Shown here: positions 588-36,353 of the stretch, piece by piece | How positions within the stretch are numbered: position 1 is the stretch's first letter | Layout: each line of letters begins with the position of its first letter | From: Desulfarculaceae bacterium JdFR-97 | GTDB lineage: Bacteria > Desulfobacterota > Desulfocorpusculales > Desulfocorpusculum | Direction of reading: 5' to 3' | NCBI GenBank assembly: GCA_002010915.1 | Contig: MTPG01000071.1 | Coordinates: forward strand, 14,019-51,768 | DNA length: 37,750 nt | Translations under genes and position numbers: made by a program | Notes under the pieces: model-generated | The model's input: the letters and a program-made list of their open reading frames with translations, nothing else | The model's database searches: none | What the model was told of the DNA's origin: nothing

Positions 588-2039
588 TCAAACGAACTTC
601 AATCGGGACAATGCAAAGAGCACCGTCCTGAAGAGCAACCAACCGTGTCTCCATCTCAGTATATTGGTCCGTCCATATTTGCGCTGCCCATATCGGATCG
701 GAATCTCCACGATCTTCAGGTTTAATTTCGCGGCTCCAAACAACAGGTTGAAATCCCCAAAAGGGTCAAAATCCCCGAAGTAGGATCGGTTCAATTGGAT
801 CTTTTCATAGTCCGATCTCCATAGGGCTTTCGTCCCGCAGAGTGTGTCCCTTATGGACTGGCCCAAAAGCCAAGTGAAGGTCCAACTGAAGAACTTGTTC
901 CCCACCAGATTGAGAAAACGCATGGCCTCTTTTTCCATGGGATAAACGAGACGGACTCCCTGAACGAACTCCCCTTTTCGGGATCGAAGGACCTCGTAGA
1001 ACCGGGGGAGATCCTCCGGCGCAACCGTCAGATCCGCGTCCAGGATCATCAGGATCTCTCCCCGGGCCTTCTCGAATCCCAACCGGACGGCATCCCCTTT
1101 CCCCTCTCCCACCTGCTTCACCAGAAGACAGGGAATCTCCGGGTGCCTCTCCATCTCCCTCTCGATCGCCTCGTAGGTCCCGTCCTCCGAATGACCTTCC
1201 ACGAAGATGAGCTCGGTTCGACTCCCCATCTTGGGGAGGCGATAAAAAATCTCCGGAATGTTGCCAGCCTCGTTGCGGGCCGGGACAACTACCGAGACAC
1301 TGGGCTCTGCGGATACTTCCATATGGCCGGGCCGAGGCCTTGCGATGAGAAAGTTGGTAAGAGCCAGGTAGTGAAAAGGCCAAATCCGGACCACCACCTT
1401 ATTACAGAAGGATGCCAACAAAGGAATGGGTAATGGACAGAGGATCTCCCCCCATCGGCGGATCACCTCGCAGTCACTCAGATCCATCAATCCCTGGATA
1501 TCCTCCACGGTGAGCCAGTTTTGAGGAAGAAGTGGCTTGGCCAGTCCCAGTCGTCTGGCCGCATGGAGGGGAATTTCCCAGAGTCGACTGTAAGTATTAA
1601 GTAGAATTCGGGTCCTGGGGGTGGCCAGCCTACGAATCTCCTGAAAAGCAGTCTGAACATCCCATAGGTCGTTGATCACATCCGAGAGGATGATGACGTC
1701 GAAAGATCCTTTCAGGCAAAGGAAGTGAGCGTCACACTGAAGGAAGACTAGGCGAGGATGTCTCTTTTTGGCGCGGCGGATCATCTCCCCGGAAAAATCC
1801 ACTCCTACTCCCAAGGAAGGTTGGAGAGAGGCGAGCAATTCCCCGGTCCCACATCCGATTTCGAGGACGCGTGCATCCCTAGGGACCATGAAACCATAAA
1901 TCTGCCGGACCCGCCGATGATAGTATCCCCCCCAATGGGACCTACTCTCGCTCCTCCTCGCAATTGCGTCCCAGTGTGCCCGCCTACCTCGGGCGTAGTC
2001 GGACCCAGCCCTATCCAATGGTTGTTCTTTCTTCGGCAT
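588..2039 (-). CDS. SAM methyltransferase fused to GT2 glycosyltransferase
   Basis: A two-domain protein of 483 residues. The N-terminal half is a class I SAM-dependent methyltransferase with the glycine-rich motif VLEIGCGTG (about residues 58-66) and the acidic GVDFSGEM motif. The C-terminal half (from about residue 246) is a family 2 glycosyltransferase like dolichyl-phosphate-mannose synthase: VSVVVPARNE for the nucleotide, EGHSEDGT, and the metal-binding ILDADLT motif near residues 332-338. It probably transfers a sugar to a lipid carrier and methylates a related substrate during polysaccharide synthesis. I prefer the ATG at 2039 (a GAG sits 7 bases upstream); an ATG at 2081 would add 14 unconserved-looking residues and has its purine tract too close. 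The next gene on the strand is the TMTC-like transferase. Confidence 0.85.
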   Translation of the reverse strand: MPKKEQPLDRAGSDYARGRRAHWDAIARRSESRSHWGGYYHRRVRQIYGFMVPRDARVLEIGCGTGELLASLQPSLGVGVDFSGEMIRRAKKRHPRLVFLQCDAHFLCLKGSFDVIILSDVINDLWDVQTAFQEIRRLATPRTRILLNTYSRLWEIPLHAARRLGLAKPLLPQNWLTVEDIQGLMDLSDCEVIRRWGEILCPLPIPLLASFCNKVVVRIWPFHYLALTNFLIARPRPGHMEVSAEPSVSVVVPARNEAGNIPEIFYRLPKMGSRTELIFVEGHSEDGTYEAIEREMERHPEIPCLLVKQVGEGKGDAVRLGFEKARGEILMILDADLTVAPEDLPRFYEVLRSRKGEFVQGVRLVYPMEKEAMRFLNLVGNKFFSWTFTWLLGQSIRDTLCGTKALWRSDYEKIQLNRSYFGDFDPFGDFNLLFGAAKLNLKIVEIPIRYGQRKYGRTNILRWRHGWLLFRTVLFALSRLKFV

Positions 2040-6904: not shown

Positions 6905-7885
6905 CTAGTCTCCCCCAGGATGGGAAGAAGACGAATCCTCAATCAGACCAAAGTGGCTCAAAGTCCTCCGGAGCCCTTCTTCGAAATCCACCTTAGGTCG
7001 GTAACCCAGAAAACCCTCGGCCAAGGTGATATCCGCCAGAGAATGACGGACATCCCCGGGACGGGGAGGGGCGAATTCCGGAGTGGGCTTCACCCCTGCC
7101 ACTCTCGACATGGCCTCCAGCAACTGCAGCACACTGATGCTCCGCCCGCATGCGATGTTGAAGACACGGCCTGGGGCCTCCTCGGCGAAACACGCCCGCA
7201 GGTTGGCCTCCACCACGTTTTCCACAAAGGTGAAATCCCTGGTCTGCCGTCCGTCTCCATAGATGGTGGGAGGTCGTCCCTCCTTTAGAGCTGAGGCGAA
7301 GCGGGGGATCACTGAGGCGTAATGGGAGGAGGGATCCTGCCTGGGTCCGAAGATGTTGAAATAGCGAAGGACCACGGTCTCCAGGCCGTAGGAGGCGAAA
7401 AAGGCCCGGCAATACCCTTCCCCTGTAAGCTTGGTGGCCGCATAAGGGGAAAGGGGGGACGGGGGAAGATTCTCCCGTTTTGGCCGTATCTCCTCCCCTT
7501 CCACATTGCCGTAGACCGACGAAGAGGAGGCAAAGATCACCCGCTTTACCCCCGCCTCCTTGGCCTTGATGAGGACCTTAAGGGTCCCCTCCGCATTGAC
7601 TCGATGGCTCGTCCAGGGATCCTCCACGGAGCGGGGGACCGAGGGGATGGCGGCTTGGTGCAGCACGTAATGGACCCCCTCCATGGCACGTCCCAGCAGC
7701 CACTCTTGGCAGATATCCCCCTCGATGACCTCCAAGGACGGATGACCGGCCAAGTGGCTGAGATTCTCCCTCCGGCCCGTGGAAAAGTCGTCGATGACCC
7801 TGACTTCATGACCGTCGGACAAAAGTCGGTCCACCAGATGAGACCCGATGAATCCTCCTCCTCCCGTCACCAAGAACCTCGCCAT
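6905..7885 (-). CDS. NAD-dependent sugar-nucleotide epimerase/dehydratase (GalE/WbpP-like)
   Basis: Extended short-chain dehydrogenase of 326 residues, probably a UDP-sugar 4-epimerase. It shows the NAD-binding TGGGGFIGSH motif (residues 7-16), the DDF strand end, the catalytic SSSSVYG serine region (about residues 120-126) and YxxxK as YAATK (Tyr148, Lys152). The motif AAIPSVPRSVEDP resembles the UDP-N-acetylglucosamine 4-epimerase branch (WbpP-type) more than classic GalE, so UDP-GlcNAc or UDP-glucuronate are possible substrates; the latter would fit the nearby ugd. GGAGG 7 bases upstream of the ATG supports the start. It lies 65 bases upstream of asnB and 45 bases downstream of truA on the same strand. 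Confidence 0.88.
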   Translation of the reverse strand: MARFLVTGGGGFIGSHLVDRLLSDGHEVRVIDDFSTGRRENLSHLAGHPSLEVIEGDICQEWLLGRAMEGVHYVLHQAAIPSVPRSVEDPWTSHRVNAEGTLKVLIKAKEAGVKRVIFASSSSVYGNVEGEEIRPKRENLPPSPLSPYAATKLTGEGYCRAFFASYGLETVVLRYFNIFGPRQDPSSHYASVIPRFASALKEGRPPTIYGDGRQTRDFTFVENVVEANLRACFAEEAPGRVFNIACGRSISVLQLLEAMSRVAGVKPTPEFAPPRPGDVRHSLADITLAEGFLGYRPKVDFEEGLRRTLSHFGLIEDSSSSHPGGD

Positions 7886-14716: not shown

Positions 14717-15185
14717 ACCGGAATCTCTGTCTCAATAATGGCTCTCATCATCCATATGGTGTATTTTGTCTATCTCGTCCGTTTCGTGCGTGGGTTTAAC
14801 CGCTCACTCCCTTCGTATTTCATCTCCACGGTCTCAAAAGAATCCTCGAATACCTTGAGGATTACATTCCCTTAGCCCATTAGCGGACCTGATTCGATAA
14901 TGAATCACATCCCCCCAGTAAACGCACCCCGGAAACACCCTGCTTTCCATCCTCTCTCTGCATCCCCTCCCTAAACAAAGCCCTACGCTCTCCTCCATTC
15001 TCTTTGGCGGAAAGCCTTCCCCATTTATTCAAATCCTTGACTCACCCATCCCCACCTTAGGTAGAAGCGACCTCTCCGTGGCGGCAATTTACCCATTTTT
15101 TTCCTTGAGGCAAAATGCGCAAAAATCATCCAATCATCCAGACAACCAGATACACCGGATAAACCGGACCCCCGGGTTATCAATC
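14717..15185. other. Intergenic region with two short period-9 repeat runs
   Basis: No gene is supported here. The sequence contains three units of a period-9 repeat at 14764-14790 (TTTTGTCTA, TCTCGTCCG, TTTCGTGCG) and four at 15137-15171 in the opposite orientation (ending ACCAGATAC, ACCGGATAA, ACCGGACCC), both described under the array at 35879. The rest is C/T-rich and probably decayed coding sequence. Confidence 0.5.
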
Positions 15186-15214: not shown

Positions 15215-15248
15215 TTAAGGAAAGTTTATATGTATATGGAGTATGGCA

Positions 15249-15455
15249 ATGAAGAAAACCACAGTGGTCATCGACGAGAAACTCCTCGCCGAGGCCATGG
15301 AGGCCATGGGGGCCAAGTCAATCCGCGAGGCCATCGAGACGGCCCTTAGGGCCGCGGTCAACAAGAAAAAACAGGAGGCCTTGGCCGCCGCGCTGGGCAC
15401 CTTTGAGCTGGATTTGACCCTGGAGGAGCTGGAAGAGCTGCGCAATGCCCATTGA
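15249..15455 (+). CDS. vapB: VapB-family antitoxin
   Basis: A 68-residue antitoxin of a type II toxin-antitoxin pair. It starts MKKTTVVIDEKLL (a beta strand as in ribbon-helix-helix DNA-binding proteins), continues with the helix EAMGAKSIREAIETALR and ends with an acidic toxin-binding tail (TLEELEELRNAH). GGAG lies 7 bases before the ATG at 15249; an ATG six bases earlier has the purine tract too close. It overlaps vapC by 11 bases. It should neutralise VapC and repress the operon. Confidence 0.88.
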   Translation: MKKTTVVIDEKLLAEAMEAMGAKSIREAIETALRAAVNKKKQEALAAALGTFELDLTLEELEELRNAH

Positions 15456-15867
15456 TCGCTTTCTCGTGGACACTTCGGTCTGGATCTTCGCATTGAGGAG
15501 GGATCCTATCCCCTCGATCCGGGAGCGGATCGGGCGCCTCCTCAATGCGAACGCCGTCTTGATCACCAGGATCATCCAGCTGGAGATCCTGGGCGGTGCC
15601 AGGACCGAGCGGGAATTCCACCGATTGAAGTCCCTCCTGGATGCCCTCGATCGGGTGGAGGCGGAACGCCCTGTCTGGGAGCGGGCGTACGGGCTTGCCT
15701 TCACGTTGAAACGCAAGGGCATCACCGTCCCCTATACGGACATCCTGATTGCAGCCTGTGCCATGGCCTCGGGCTCCACCTTAGTGCACGCAGATGCCCA
15801 CTTCGACCTGATGTCCGAACACGTGGACCTTCAGGTGGAAAGCCTCGTTGCGGAGGTTCAAAATTGA
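15445..15867 (+). CDS. vapC: VapC-family PIN-domain ribonuclease toxin
   Basis: A 140-residue PIN-domain endoribonuclease; family members cut tRNA or rRNA when released from the antitoxin. The acidic active site is present: FLVDTSVWI (Asp9), IIQLEILGG (Glu47), YTDILIAACAM (Asp99) and HADAHFDLM (Asp117/Asp121). The start overlaps the end of vapB by 11 bases, giving the usual coupled order antitoxin-toxin. All key residues are intact, so the toxin is likely active. The pair sits among gene remnants and repeats, consistent with an acquired module. Confidence 0.92.
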   Translation: MPIDRFLVDTSVWIFALRRDPIPSIRERIGRLLNANAVLITRIIQLEILGGARTEREFHRLKSLLDALDRVEAERPVWERAYGLAFTLKRKGITVPYTDILIAACAMASGSTLVHADAHFDLMSEHVDLQVESLVAEVQN

Positions 15868-16904: not shown

Positions 16905-16937
16905 TGTAGGCGGACTCATGCGAAACTGAAGGGATCA

Positions 16938-16982
16938 ACGAAATAAAGGAGAGGGACCAGACCAGCGGACCGGACGGAAACG
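16938..16982. repeat. Period-9 repeat, five units
   Basis: Five successive 9-base words: ACGAAATAA, AGGAGAGGG, ACCAGACCA, GCGGACCGG, ACGGAAACG. They belong to the degenerate ACSARAYRG family described at 35879-36353 and sit between the convergent HDAC and DUF362 genes. Confidence 0.5.
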
Positions 16983-34755: not shown

Positions 34756-35856
34756 TCAGAAATCCGGCTCCAGGACGATACGTCTCATGAGCTTTCCGGA
34801 ATGGGCCTCCTCGAAGGCCTCCTGGATGGTGCTCATAGGACGAGTCTCCAGAAAGGGCTCGATCTGGATCTTCCCGGACTGGACCAGCTCCAACACCACC
34901 GGATAGTACTGGGGCAGACACCCCCAGGTGCCGATGATCTCCGCGTCGAACGCCATAAGCCGTGAGATGCTGTATTCGTTTTTGGCCATTCCGAAGCCCA
35001 CCACGACCAGTTTGCCCACAAATGAGAGGAGCCGAAGCGCCATCTCCTGCCCCGCAGAGGTCCCGGATACCTCGAAGATCTTCCATCCCCAATTGTGGGG
35101 GAGGTCGTTGGATTTGCAGATCTCCCTGAATTCGCCCTGCACGGCCTTGGCATCCTTGTCCCGGGAGTTGATCACAGCATCGGCCCCGTATTTCAGGGCC
35201 CGCTCGAGCTTCTCCTGGCTGCGGGCGATCCCGATCACAAAGGAGGCTCCTAGGGCCTTGGCCATCTGCGTCATGTAGACCCCTACGCCGCCGGTGCAGC
35301 CGATGACTACTACCCGATCCCCCTCCTTGAGGTCGGCCCTCATGGCAGCCTGATAGGGCGTAGTGACGGCATCGGCCACTACAGCATAGTGGGAAAGGGG
35401 AAGCCCTTTTCGGTCCTCAATGACACAGAGGTCCTGGGAGGGGACCACGATGTGACTGGAGAAGCCCCCGTAGATCCCAAGACTGTTTCCCGGCATCTTC
35501 TGAGCTAAGCATCGGTTTCCCCTACCCCCCTCGCAGATGGGACAGCGGTTGCAGGGCATCACGGCGGGGATGATGACGTCCTTGCCCTCCAAATCGCCAG
35601 CCACCACTGTCCCGCTGATCTCGTGCCCCAGAGTCAGGGGAGGTTTGCTCACGGTCGGGACCCCGTCGTAGAAGTACCCCAGGTCCGTGTGGCAGACGCC
35701 GCAGCCGGCTATCTCCACCAGGGACTCGCCCGGTTGCAACTCCGGAACCGGGATCTCCTTTTTCTCCAGGAGTCCCTCCGTGACCTTGCCGGTCTCCCGG
35801 TCCTTGCTCCAGGGCCTCACCATCTGCCAGGTCTGGATCTTATCCGGCACAGCCAT
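34756..35856 (-). CDS. had: 6-hydroxycyclohex-1-ene-1-carbonyl-CoA dehydrogenase (zinc alcohol dehydrogenase family)
   Basis: NAD-dependent medium-chain dehydrogenase of 366 residues. In the anaerobic benzoyl-CoA pathway it oxidises 6-hydroxycyclohex-1-ene-1-carbonyl-CoA to the 6-oxo compound. Catalytic zinc ligands lie in GCGVCHTDLG (Cys52, Cys55 region) and GHEISG (His78, Glu79); the structural zinc site is CNRCPICEGGRGNRC (Cys102, 105, 108, 116). The Rossmann motif is VVIGCTGGVGVYM. Segments IQTWQMVRPWSKDRETGKV and YFYDGVPTVSKPPLTLGHE are typical of the Had family. GGAGG 8 bases before the ATG at 35856 fixes the start. No oah, dch or bam gene is nearby, so its pathway partners lie elsewhere or it has been separated. 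Confidence 0.86.
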   Translation of the reverse strand: MAVPDKIQTWQMVRPWSKDRETGKVTEGLLEKKEIPVPELQPGESLVEIAGCGVCHTDLGYFYDGVPTVSKPPLTLGHEISGTVVAGDLEGKDVIIPAVMPCNRCPICEGGRGNRCLAQKMPGNSLGIYGGFSSHIVVPSQDLCVIEDRKGLPLSHYAVVADAVTTPYQAAMRADLKEGDRVVVIGCTGGVGVYMTQMAKALGASFVIGIARSQEKLERALKYGADAVINSRDKDAKAVQGEFREICKSNDLPHNWGWKIFEVSGTSAGQEMALRLLSFVGKLVVVGFGMAKNEYSISRLMAFDAEIIGTWGCLPQYYPVVLELVQSGKIQIEPFLETRPMSTIQEAFEEAHSGKLMRRIVLEPDF

Positions 35857-35878
35857 CCCCACTACCTCCTTTCGTTAG

Positions 35879-36046
35879 TCTTGTCTATCTCGTCTGTTTC
35901 GTCGATTTCGTCTACCTCGTCTGTTTCATCTATCTCGTCTGTCTAGTCTGTTTCGTCTATCTCGTCCATTTGGTCGTGGTTGGGTAGGGGAGACTATTTC
36001 GTCTATCTGGTTGATTTCGTCTATTTCGTTGATTTGGTCTATTTGG
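35879..36046. repeat. Degenerate period-9 repeat array (TTTCGTCTA family)
   Basis: Eleven consecutive 9-base units run from 35879 to 35976: TCTTGTCTA, TCTCGTCTG, TTTCGTCGA, TTTCGTCTA, CCTCGTCTG, TTTCATCTA, and so on, each a variant of TYTCGTCTR with no length change. After a 20-base gap, six more follow at 35997-36046 (TTTCGTCTA, TCTGGTTGA, ...). The array lies immediately upstream of had, starting 23 bases before its start codon, so it forms the leader or promoter of that gene. Confidence 0.7.
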
Positions 36047-36051
36047 AAGGA

Positions 36052-36146
36052 GGGCGACTGAAGTCCCCCCTCCCCGCATAAGGGCAAAGGCCCTTGCATC
36101 CGGCAAGCATCTTCATCCATCAAGGGTGCCCCGCCACAGGCGGGGC
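36052..36146. repeat. Minus-strand copy of the dispersed hairpin repeat
   Basis: Diverged copy of the repeat at 22635-22717 on the minus strand (ACCCTTGATGGATGAA, GCTTGCCGGATGCAAGGG, GACTTCAGTCGCCC). It also contains hairpins AAGGGC-AAAG-GCCCTT (36080-36095) and GCCCCGCC-ACA-GGCGGGGC (36128-36146). Confidence 0.6.
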
Positions 36147-36198
36147 CTGCGGCGGAGCACGGGCAGTTGGTGTGATGATCCCCGCTGAGGATTAAAAA

Positions 36199-36353
36199 AC
36201 GAAATCGACGAAACGGACCAAAAGGACCAGATAGACCAGACGGGGGCGGTGCGAGGCGGATCGGCATGAAGTCGTCAAAGGCTGAGGTCGAGCAAAAGTG
36301 GAAGATGCAAGAAACCAACGAAATGGACGAGACAGACCAGATAGACGAGTAGA
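36199..36353. repeat. Period-9 repeat in opposite orientation, two runs
   Basis: Five units at 36199-36243 (ACGAAATCG, ACGAAACGG, ACCAAAAGG, ACCAGATAG, ACCAGACGG) and five at 36309-36353 (CAAGAAACC, ACGAAATGG, ACGAGACAG, ACCAGATAG, ACGAGTAGA). They are the reverse complement of the array at 35879, so the two face each other across the hairpin repeat at 36052. Confidence 0.65.

Follow-up and report, generated by a model that had tools for sequence, protein, structure and literature searches.

The described systems closest to the repeats analysed here are the STRRs of cyanobacteria, which usually have 7-bp units, are of unknown function and have been suggested to act in transcript stability or translational coupling (PMC2670836), the G-rich heptamers that Rehm and colleagues reported from Xanthomonas and Nostoc (PMC4692102), and the GTAG-tagged REPs with their RAYT (PMC3733652, PMC2817692). 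Reports of 6-9-nt repeats are rare, and intergenic arrays with such long units have been little studied (PMC4692102). The nonamer arrays described below form a precisely spelled family that occurs in distant lineages, lies at start codons and is exchanged between congeners, and as such they offer a concrete system for studying the origin and role of arrays; leader, binding platform and tolerated filler are the candidate roles. A literature search with the nonamer unit strings and their translations found no paper on them, the related papers being those on STRRs/heptamers and REPs only.

Similarly to the STRR heptamers of filamentous cyanobacteria (PMC2670836), the nonamers are short degenerate units in tandem at many intergenic and leader sites of one genome, and form hairpins when inverted, the inverted array arms in the window being 32-43 nt long and 77-84% complementary. 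They differ in having nine bases instead of seven, a strict position-specific alphabet, another phylum as host and a strong co-directional bias near starts; on account of unit length, spelling rule and phylum we set them apart from the STRRs despite the like layout, and separate heptamer arrays exist in the carriers. With the GGGNATC and GGGGA(C/T)T heptamers of Xanthomonas and Nostoc the nonamers have in common the genome-wide intergenic placement of long units, the presence of inverted pairs and a placement that varies among related species (PMC4692102); however, those heptamers are G-rich and quadruplex-forming, whereas the nonamer lacks runs of G and gives a sense RNA with almost no structure. 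The modules beside the window arrays bear a GTAG-like tag reminiscent of the REPs, but the nonamer itself is not palindromic, palindromes being found only in the neighbouring modules, and the arrays of all other carriers examined occur without these modules.

The window, a stretch of 37,750 nucleotides, comprises positions 14019-51768 of contig C6 in the 4.10-Mb, 127-contig assembly of Desulfarculaceae bacterium JdFR-97 (G000, hereafter the source genome). Its principal array had been described in the initial annotation as 17 units in strict 9-base steps; the 9-bp period stands, but the single register does not. An outer array of 12 units on the minus strand (35868-35975, 132.7 bits) and an inner one of five units on the same strand (35995-36039, 64 bits) are one base out of register with each other and are split by a REP-like fragment, GGTCGTGGTTGGGTAGGGGAGACTA (35972-35996), which resembles the palindromes with a GTAG tag that surround the RAYT gene at locus L308. 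Identity within 35868-36046 is 61-63% at lags 9, 18 and 27 versus 20-38% at the remaining lags, and TRF gives a period of 9/27 there. The inner array is followed by a degenerate REP-like palindrome, GGAGGGCGACTGAAGTCCCCCCTCC (36049-36073), and by a GC-rich hairpin (36124-36160) that is a piece of a dispersed mosaic element. The reverse-complement units reported at about 36199-36353 are present (36198-36352), not as a continuous run but as array A (five units, 36198-36242, plus strand, 55.9 bits) and array B (four units, 36317-36352, plus strand, 41.8 bits), both opposite in orientation to the outer and inner arrays and flanking a 74-bp linker. Array A, linker and array B together form a 174-bp plus-strand module (36176-36349), other copies of which, with 84-88% identity, were found at several other places of the source genome.

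The outer array, as had been annotated, stands in a gene leader: its 3' end reaches the Shine-Dalgarno sequence and directly precedes the start of a zinc-dependent alcohol dehydrogenase gene (34756-35862, minus strand; PF00107, PF08240), for which AGGAGG at 35870-35865 points to the ATG at 35856 as the start codon. Three minor sites had also been listed. Two of them, short degenerate arrays of four units at 14753-14788 (minus strand, 33 bits) and of three units at 16937-16963 (plus strand, 22.8 bits), exceed the Markov control, whereas the three diverged, weak units AACCAGATA CACCGGATA AACCGGACC at 15137-15171 (plus strand) fall below the threshold. Adjoining this weak site, a small antitoxin-like ORF is followed by a PIN-domain protein (PF01850) in a VapBC-like arrangement (15245-15867). 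The window contained no Rfam family.

A genome-wide search, as the initial annotation had called for, was positive. The two-step pattern GACNNNNYRGACNNNNYRGAC matches the source genome 248 times and its reversed control 15 times; for the stricter pattern GACNARRYRGACNARRYRGAC the numbers are 218 and 0, and for a three-unit pattern 161 and 0. The arrays are thus neither unique to the window nor without enrichment in the rest of the genome, and the family is largely as first described, and larger. A weight matrix found 102 arrays of at least 20 bits in 479 kb, most of which consists of stretches picked for their arrays (all source-genome statistics other than the pattern counts rest on array-chosen stretches), compared with 0 in a first-order Markov copy; the reversed sequence gave 26 arrays at 20 bits, a control that is not independent, because reversed arrays remain arrays. 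Arrays lie at the ends of the source-genome contigs C11, C15, C35, C13 and C17, which implies that the assembly breaks at arrays and that array counts are probably too low. The contigs C21 and C48 of this genome hold an identical copy of one element.

Within the phylum (Desulfobacterota) the three-unit pattern occurs in 21/395 genomes of scattered families, several of these carriers having one match only, which may be chance or coding. Another phylum, reached via a Candidatus Accumulibacter genome, has matches in 2/299 genomes, with one or two matches each (p = 4e-4). The heavy carriers, namely the source genome, G013/G050/G085, G386 and G305/G341, belong to separate families, while the two genomes of the source genome's own family, G001 and G002, both have 0 three-unit matches. 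A search for plasmid relatives of a long array found none, although some may have been masked by a low-complexity filter. Viral contigs gave two matches only; L227 was the one inspected, and its match resembles a coding repeat of a phage, a perfect and apparently coding GACCAGATA/GGCCAGATA tandem repeat at 7290-7400 of the contig.

Units were counted by their good neighbours on both sides, their own score being ignored, and follow the rule R-A-C-N-A-R-A-Y-V (RACNARAYV), which is the same across several families. Positions 2 (A), 3 (C), 5 (A) and 7 (A) are fixed to 98-99% in the source genome (320 units) and to 99-100% in group f12 (74 units), while the units of G278 are looser (A7 at 88%). Position 1 is G or A, and positions 4, 6, 8 and 9 vary almost freely within their alphabets: position 6 is A/G, position 8 C/T and position 9 A/G (in the source genome C too), and position 4 has dialects, G/C in the source genome, C/T/G in f12 and C in G386. 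Decay of methyl-CpG as the source of the variable Y8-R9 step was rejected by reasoning, the C3-G4 step being kept. Positions 6 and 8 are independent of each other in every group (mutual information 0.000-0.006; 0.000 in the source genome). The order of units is near exchangeable in the source genome (lag-1 z = 1.5, lag-2 z = 3.6) and in G278 (lag-1 z = -1.4); in G386 and f12 adjacent units are more alike than by chance (z 7-8) and multi-unit words are repeated, so local duplication has taken place in the arrays of these two groups. A change in the unit number of a 9-bp repeat would not shift a reading frame.

Positions relative to genes were counted for arrays of at least 40 bits, with the arrays masked, on starts from a crude ORF caller applied to array-selected loci. 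The 3' end of an array lies at most 50 bp from a co-directional start in 36/93 cases and the 5' end at most 50 bp from an opposite-strand start in 4/48 (Fisher p = 1e-4). In the source genome the 3' ends of arrays are found near convergent gene ends too (8/37). Among the arrays overall, many have no start within 50 bp, and some are within coding sequence. In G278, G386, f54, f12 and contig C91 of the source genome the last units abut the start codon or contain it, and a unit of the form GACNARATG can itself provide the ATG. A Shine-Dalgarno motif was found at 8/36 array-flush starts versus 317/738 (p = 0.015), a depletion that is weak because the start calls are crude. Sense arrays of the source genome, G386 and G278 are less folded than mononucleotide shuffles (mean z 1.8-2.2); in f12 and f54 such a difference is not clear. 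The genes behind the arrays, their names being read from sequence, are mixed and include polysaccharide export, nucleotidyltransferase/HEPN pairs, acyl-CoA dehydrogenase, purC, RNase R, GatA, ribosomal protein S11 and toxin-antitoxin genes.

Six orthologous gaps were compared between congeners, each of them picked since one species had an array there, so the rate of persistence is only indicative. Nonamer arrays are present in both species at 4/6 gaps: three between G305 and G341 (beside a tRNA-Glu-like gene, before purC, and at L259/L318, where the arrays differ by exactly 18 bp, i.e. two units) and one in the acyl-CoA dehydrogenase leader of f12, where the DNA upstream is unrelated. At the other two the second species has a heptamer array: rfbD-lpxH has nonamers in G305 and inverted heptamer arrays in G341, and the hemL-like leader of f12 has nonamers in G013 and heptamers of the ATAACCT type in G085, each extending to the start codon. 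Among the 14 aligned unit pairs of the first three gaps, changes fell on 20/56 free versus 4/70 fixed sites (p = 2e-5), and 20/24 of the changes between orthologous units are transitions. In G013 the acyl-CoA dehydrogenase and the hemL-like leaders have about 121 nt in common with one mismatch, a block that ends inside the array, which implies that the leader of one gene was transferred as a copy to another, the junction lying within the repeat. The arrays thus occur in many copies, with a patchy distribution in the phylum; they vary at particular positions of the unit and persist in the leaders of congeners. Their length changes by whole units, they are copied from locus to locus with the break inside an array, and heptamer arrays can take their place.

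In a 255-kb stretch of G085 the autocorrelation of the intergenic DNA peaks only at lags 7 and 9 (and 14); repeats of period 8 are few there and those of 5, 6 or 10-13 nearly absent. Array-free genomes have almost no such intergenic periods. Other degenerate arrays, with 7-base units of the ATAACCT, GAGCATA and TTACGAC types or with a GTGGTTAGG-type 9-mer, were seen at L228, L229, L204 and L255/L288 (G085, G013, G305, G341).

Some of the window arrays sit in a dispersed element of the source genome that combines the palindromes GGGCGACTNNAGTCGCCC and GGAGGCTNNAGCCTCC with linkers. The same palindromes, REP-like and GTAG-tagged, stand on both sides (968, 1214, 1998, 2087) of a Y1/RAYT transposase gene (L308 on contig C86, about 1380-1850, minus strand), and judged from its sequence this locus is a REP system of the source genome. 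The flanks of the transposase gene are these palindromes and not nonamer arrays. In the array loci of other carriers the palindromic modules were counted 0 times, so we regard them as a local vehicle and not as the origin of the arrays.

We propose, with about even chances of being right, that the nonamer arrays are non-coding intergenic leader minisatellites of fast turnover, STRR-like but built of a degenerate nonamer, that slippage and ectopic recombination have spread them, and that they are tolerated or favoured as unstructured leaders. Slippage would lengthen and shorten the arrays; they would spread by recombining ectopically, or through gene conversion, among themselves, and in the source genome additionally by hitching on the RAYT/REP mosaic; and the arrays may fill the space up to the next start codon, where they would serve as leader or as spacer, in many cases with no Shine-Dalgarno sequence, although the alcohol dehydrogenase array of the window abuts one. 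Near starts the sense orientation may be kept because RNA of this sense has almost no structure and can supply an ATG. We infer slippage, ectopic recombination and leader role alike. The active or former copying process that the initial annotation read from the strict period with tolerated changes agrees with the copied modules, the 18-bp indel and the shared leader block; however, with base changes limited to set unit positions and a near-random unit order in the source genome, copying alone is insufficient. This order and the independence of positions 6 and 8 count against simple slippage, and the minisatellite reading leaves the fixity of positions 2, 3, 5 and 7, and a rule common to distant families, unaccounted for. 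A binding partner or a writing enzyme is possibly behind the four fixed positions. That the unit is a recognition site, a putative DNA- or RNA-binding protein or guide RNA reading A2, C3, A5 and A7 plus the purine/pyrimidine at 6, 8 and 9, with the arrays as multivalent leader platforms, would agree with near-invariant beside free positions in unbiased counts under one rule in several families, with the resistance of the fixed positions to change between congeners and with the retention of arrays in the same leaders; the loss of arrays or their swapping for heptamers at orthologous genes, and the variety of array-led genes, from ribosomal protein S11, purC and RNase R to toxin-antitoxin and polysaccharide genes, make it rather unlikely.

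An enzyme dedicated to writing is quite improbable, whether conceived as a putative activity that lays down arrays at gene borders by templated or untemplated repeat synthesis with ambiguity built in at set positions, or, just as doubtfully, as a system that would (re)write replaceable leaders there, each unit being set independently under RACNARAYV and in parallel to the 7-base arrays. The independent choice at positions 6 and 8, the near-exchangeable order in the source genome and G278, the predominance of periods 7 and 9 in G085, the genome-specific dialects at positions 4 and 9 and the different array types in one slot of two species are consistent with such synthesis, while the block duplications in G386 and f12 and the two-unit indel resemble ordinary slippage. 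The palindromic modules between the arrays of the source genome, the dispersal of whole modules there and the RAYT gene flanked by the same palindromes would fit arrays that belong to a RAYT-mobilised REP/BIME mosaic element or ride along with it; yet the arrays of other carriers are alike with no modules at their loci, and many arrays of the source genome stand alone, so this is unlikely, the mosaic is weakened as a general explanation, and RAYT/REP as a general vehicle was rejected. Least of all can the arrays be pure chance or remnants of a coding repeat, which we consider hardly credible: the Markov control yielded 0 arrays, and while two sense frames are often open and a phage contig encodes a similar tandem repeat, one sense frame has stops, the variation is free at non-synonymous positions, the arrays are mostly intergenic and the ORF spanning the window arrays has no Pfam match, for which reasons a coding repeat was rejected.

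Contig C91 of the source genome (L187) has about ten co-directional nonamer arrays among toxin-antitoxin (nucleotidyltransferase/HEPN, VapBC-like), S23-like and sugar-nucleotide genes. An integron-like cassette system, considered for this contig because its arrays separate small toxin-antitoxin and sugar genes from one another, was dropped, since housekeeping genes carry arrays too. In G278 (L238, L239) most of the junctions between genes in a polysaccharide operon and in a nucleotidyltransferase/HEPN region have arrays, and it is possible that the arrays were acquired along with these genes. A RAYT-like gene of another genome, G429 (L265), has an array before its start, and an array-encoded stretch lies within the coding sequence of the RAYT-like protein (DKPDKRDKRNKPNQSD); a similarly encoded stretch forms part of the C-terminus of an S23-like protein in G085 (L268).
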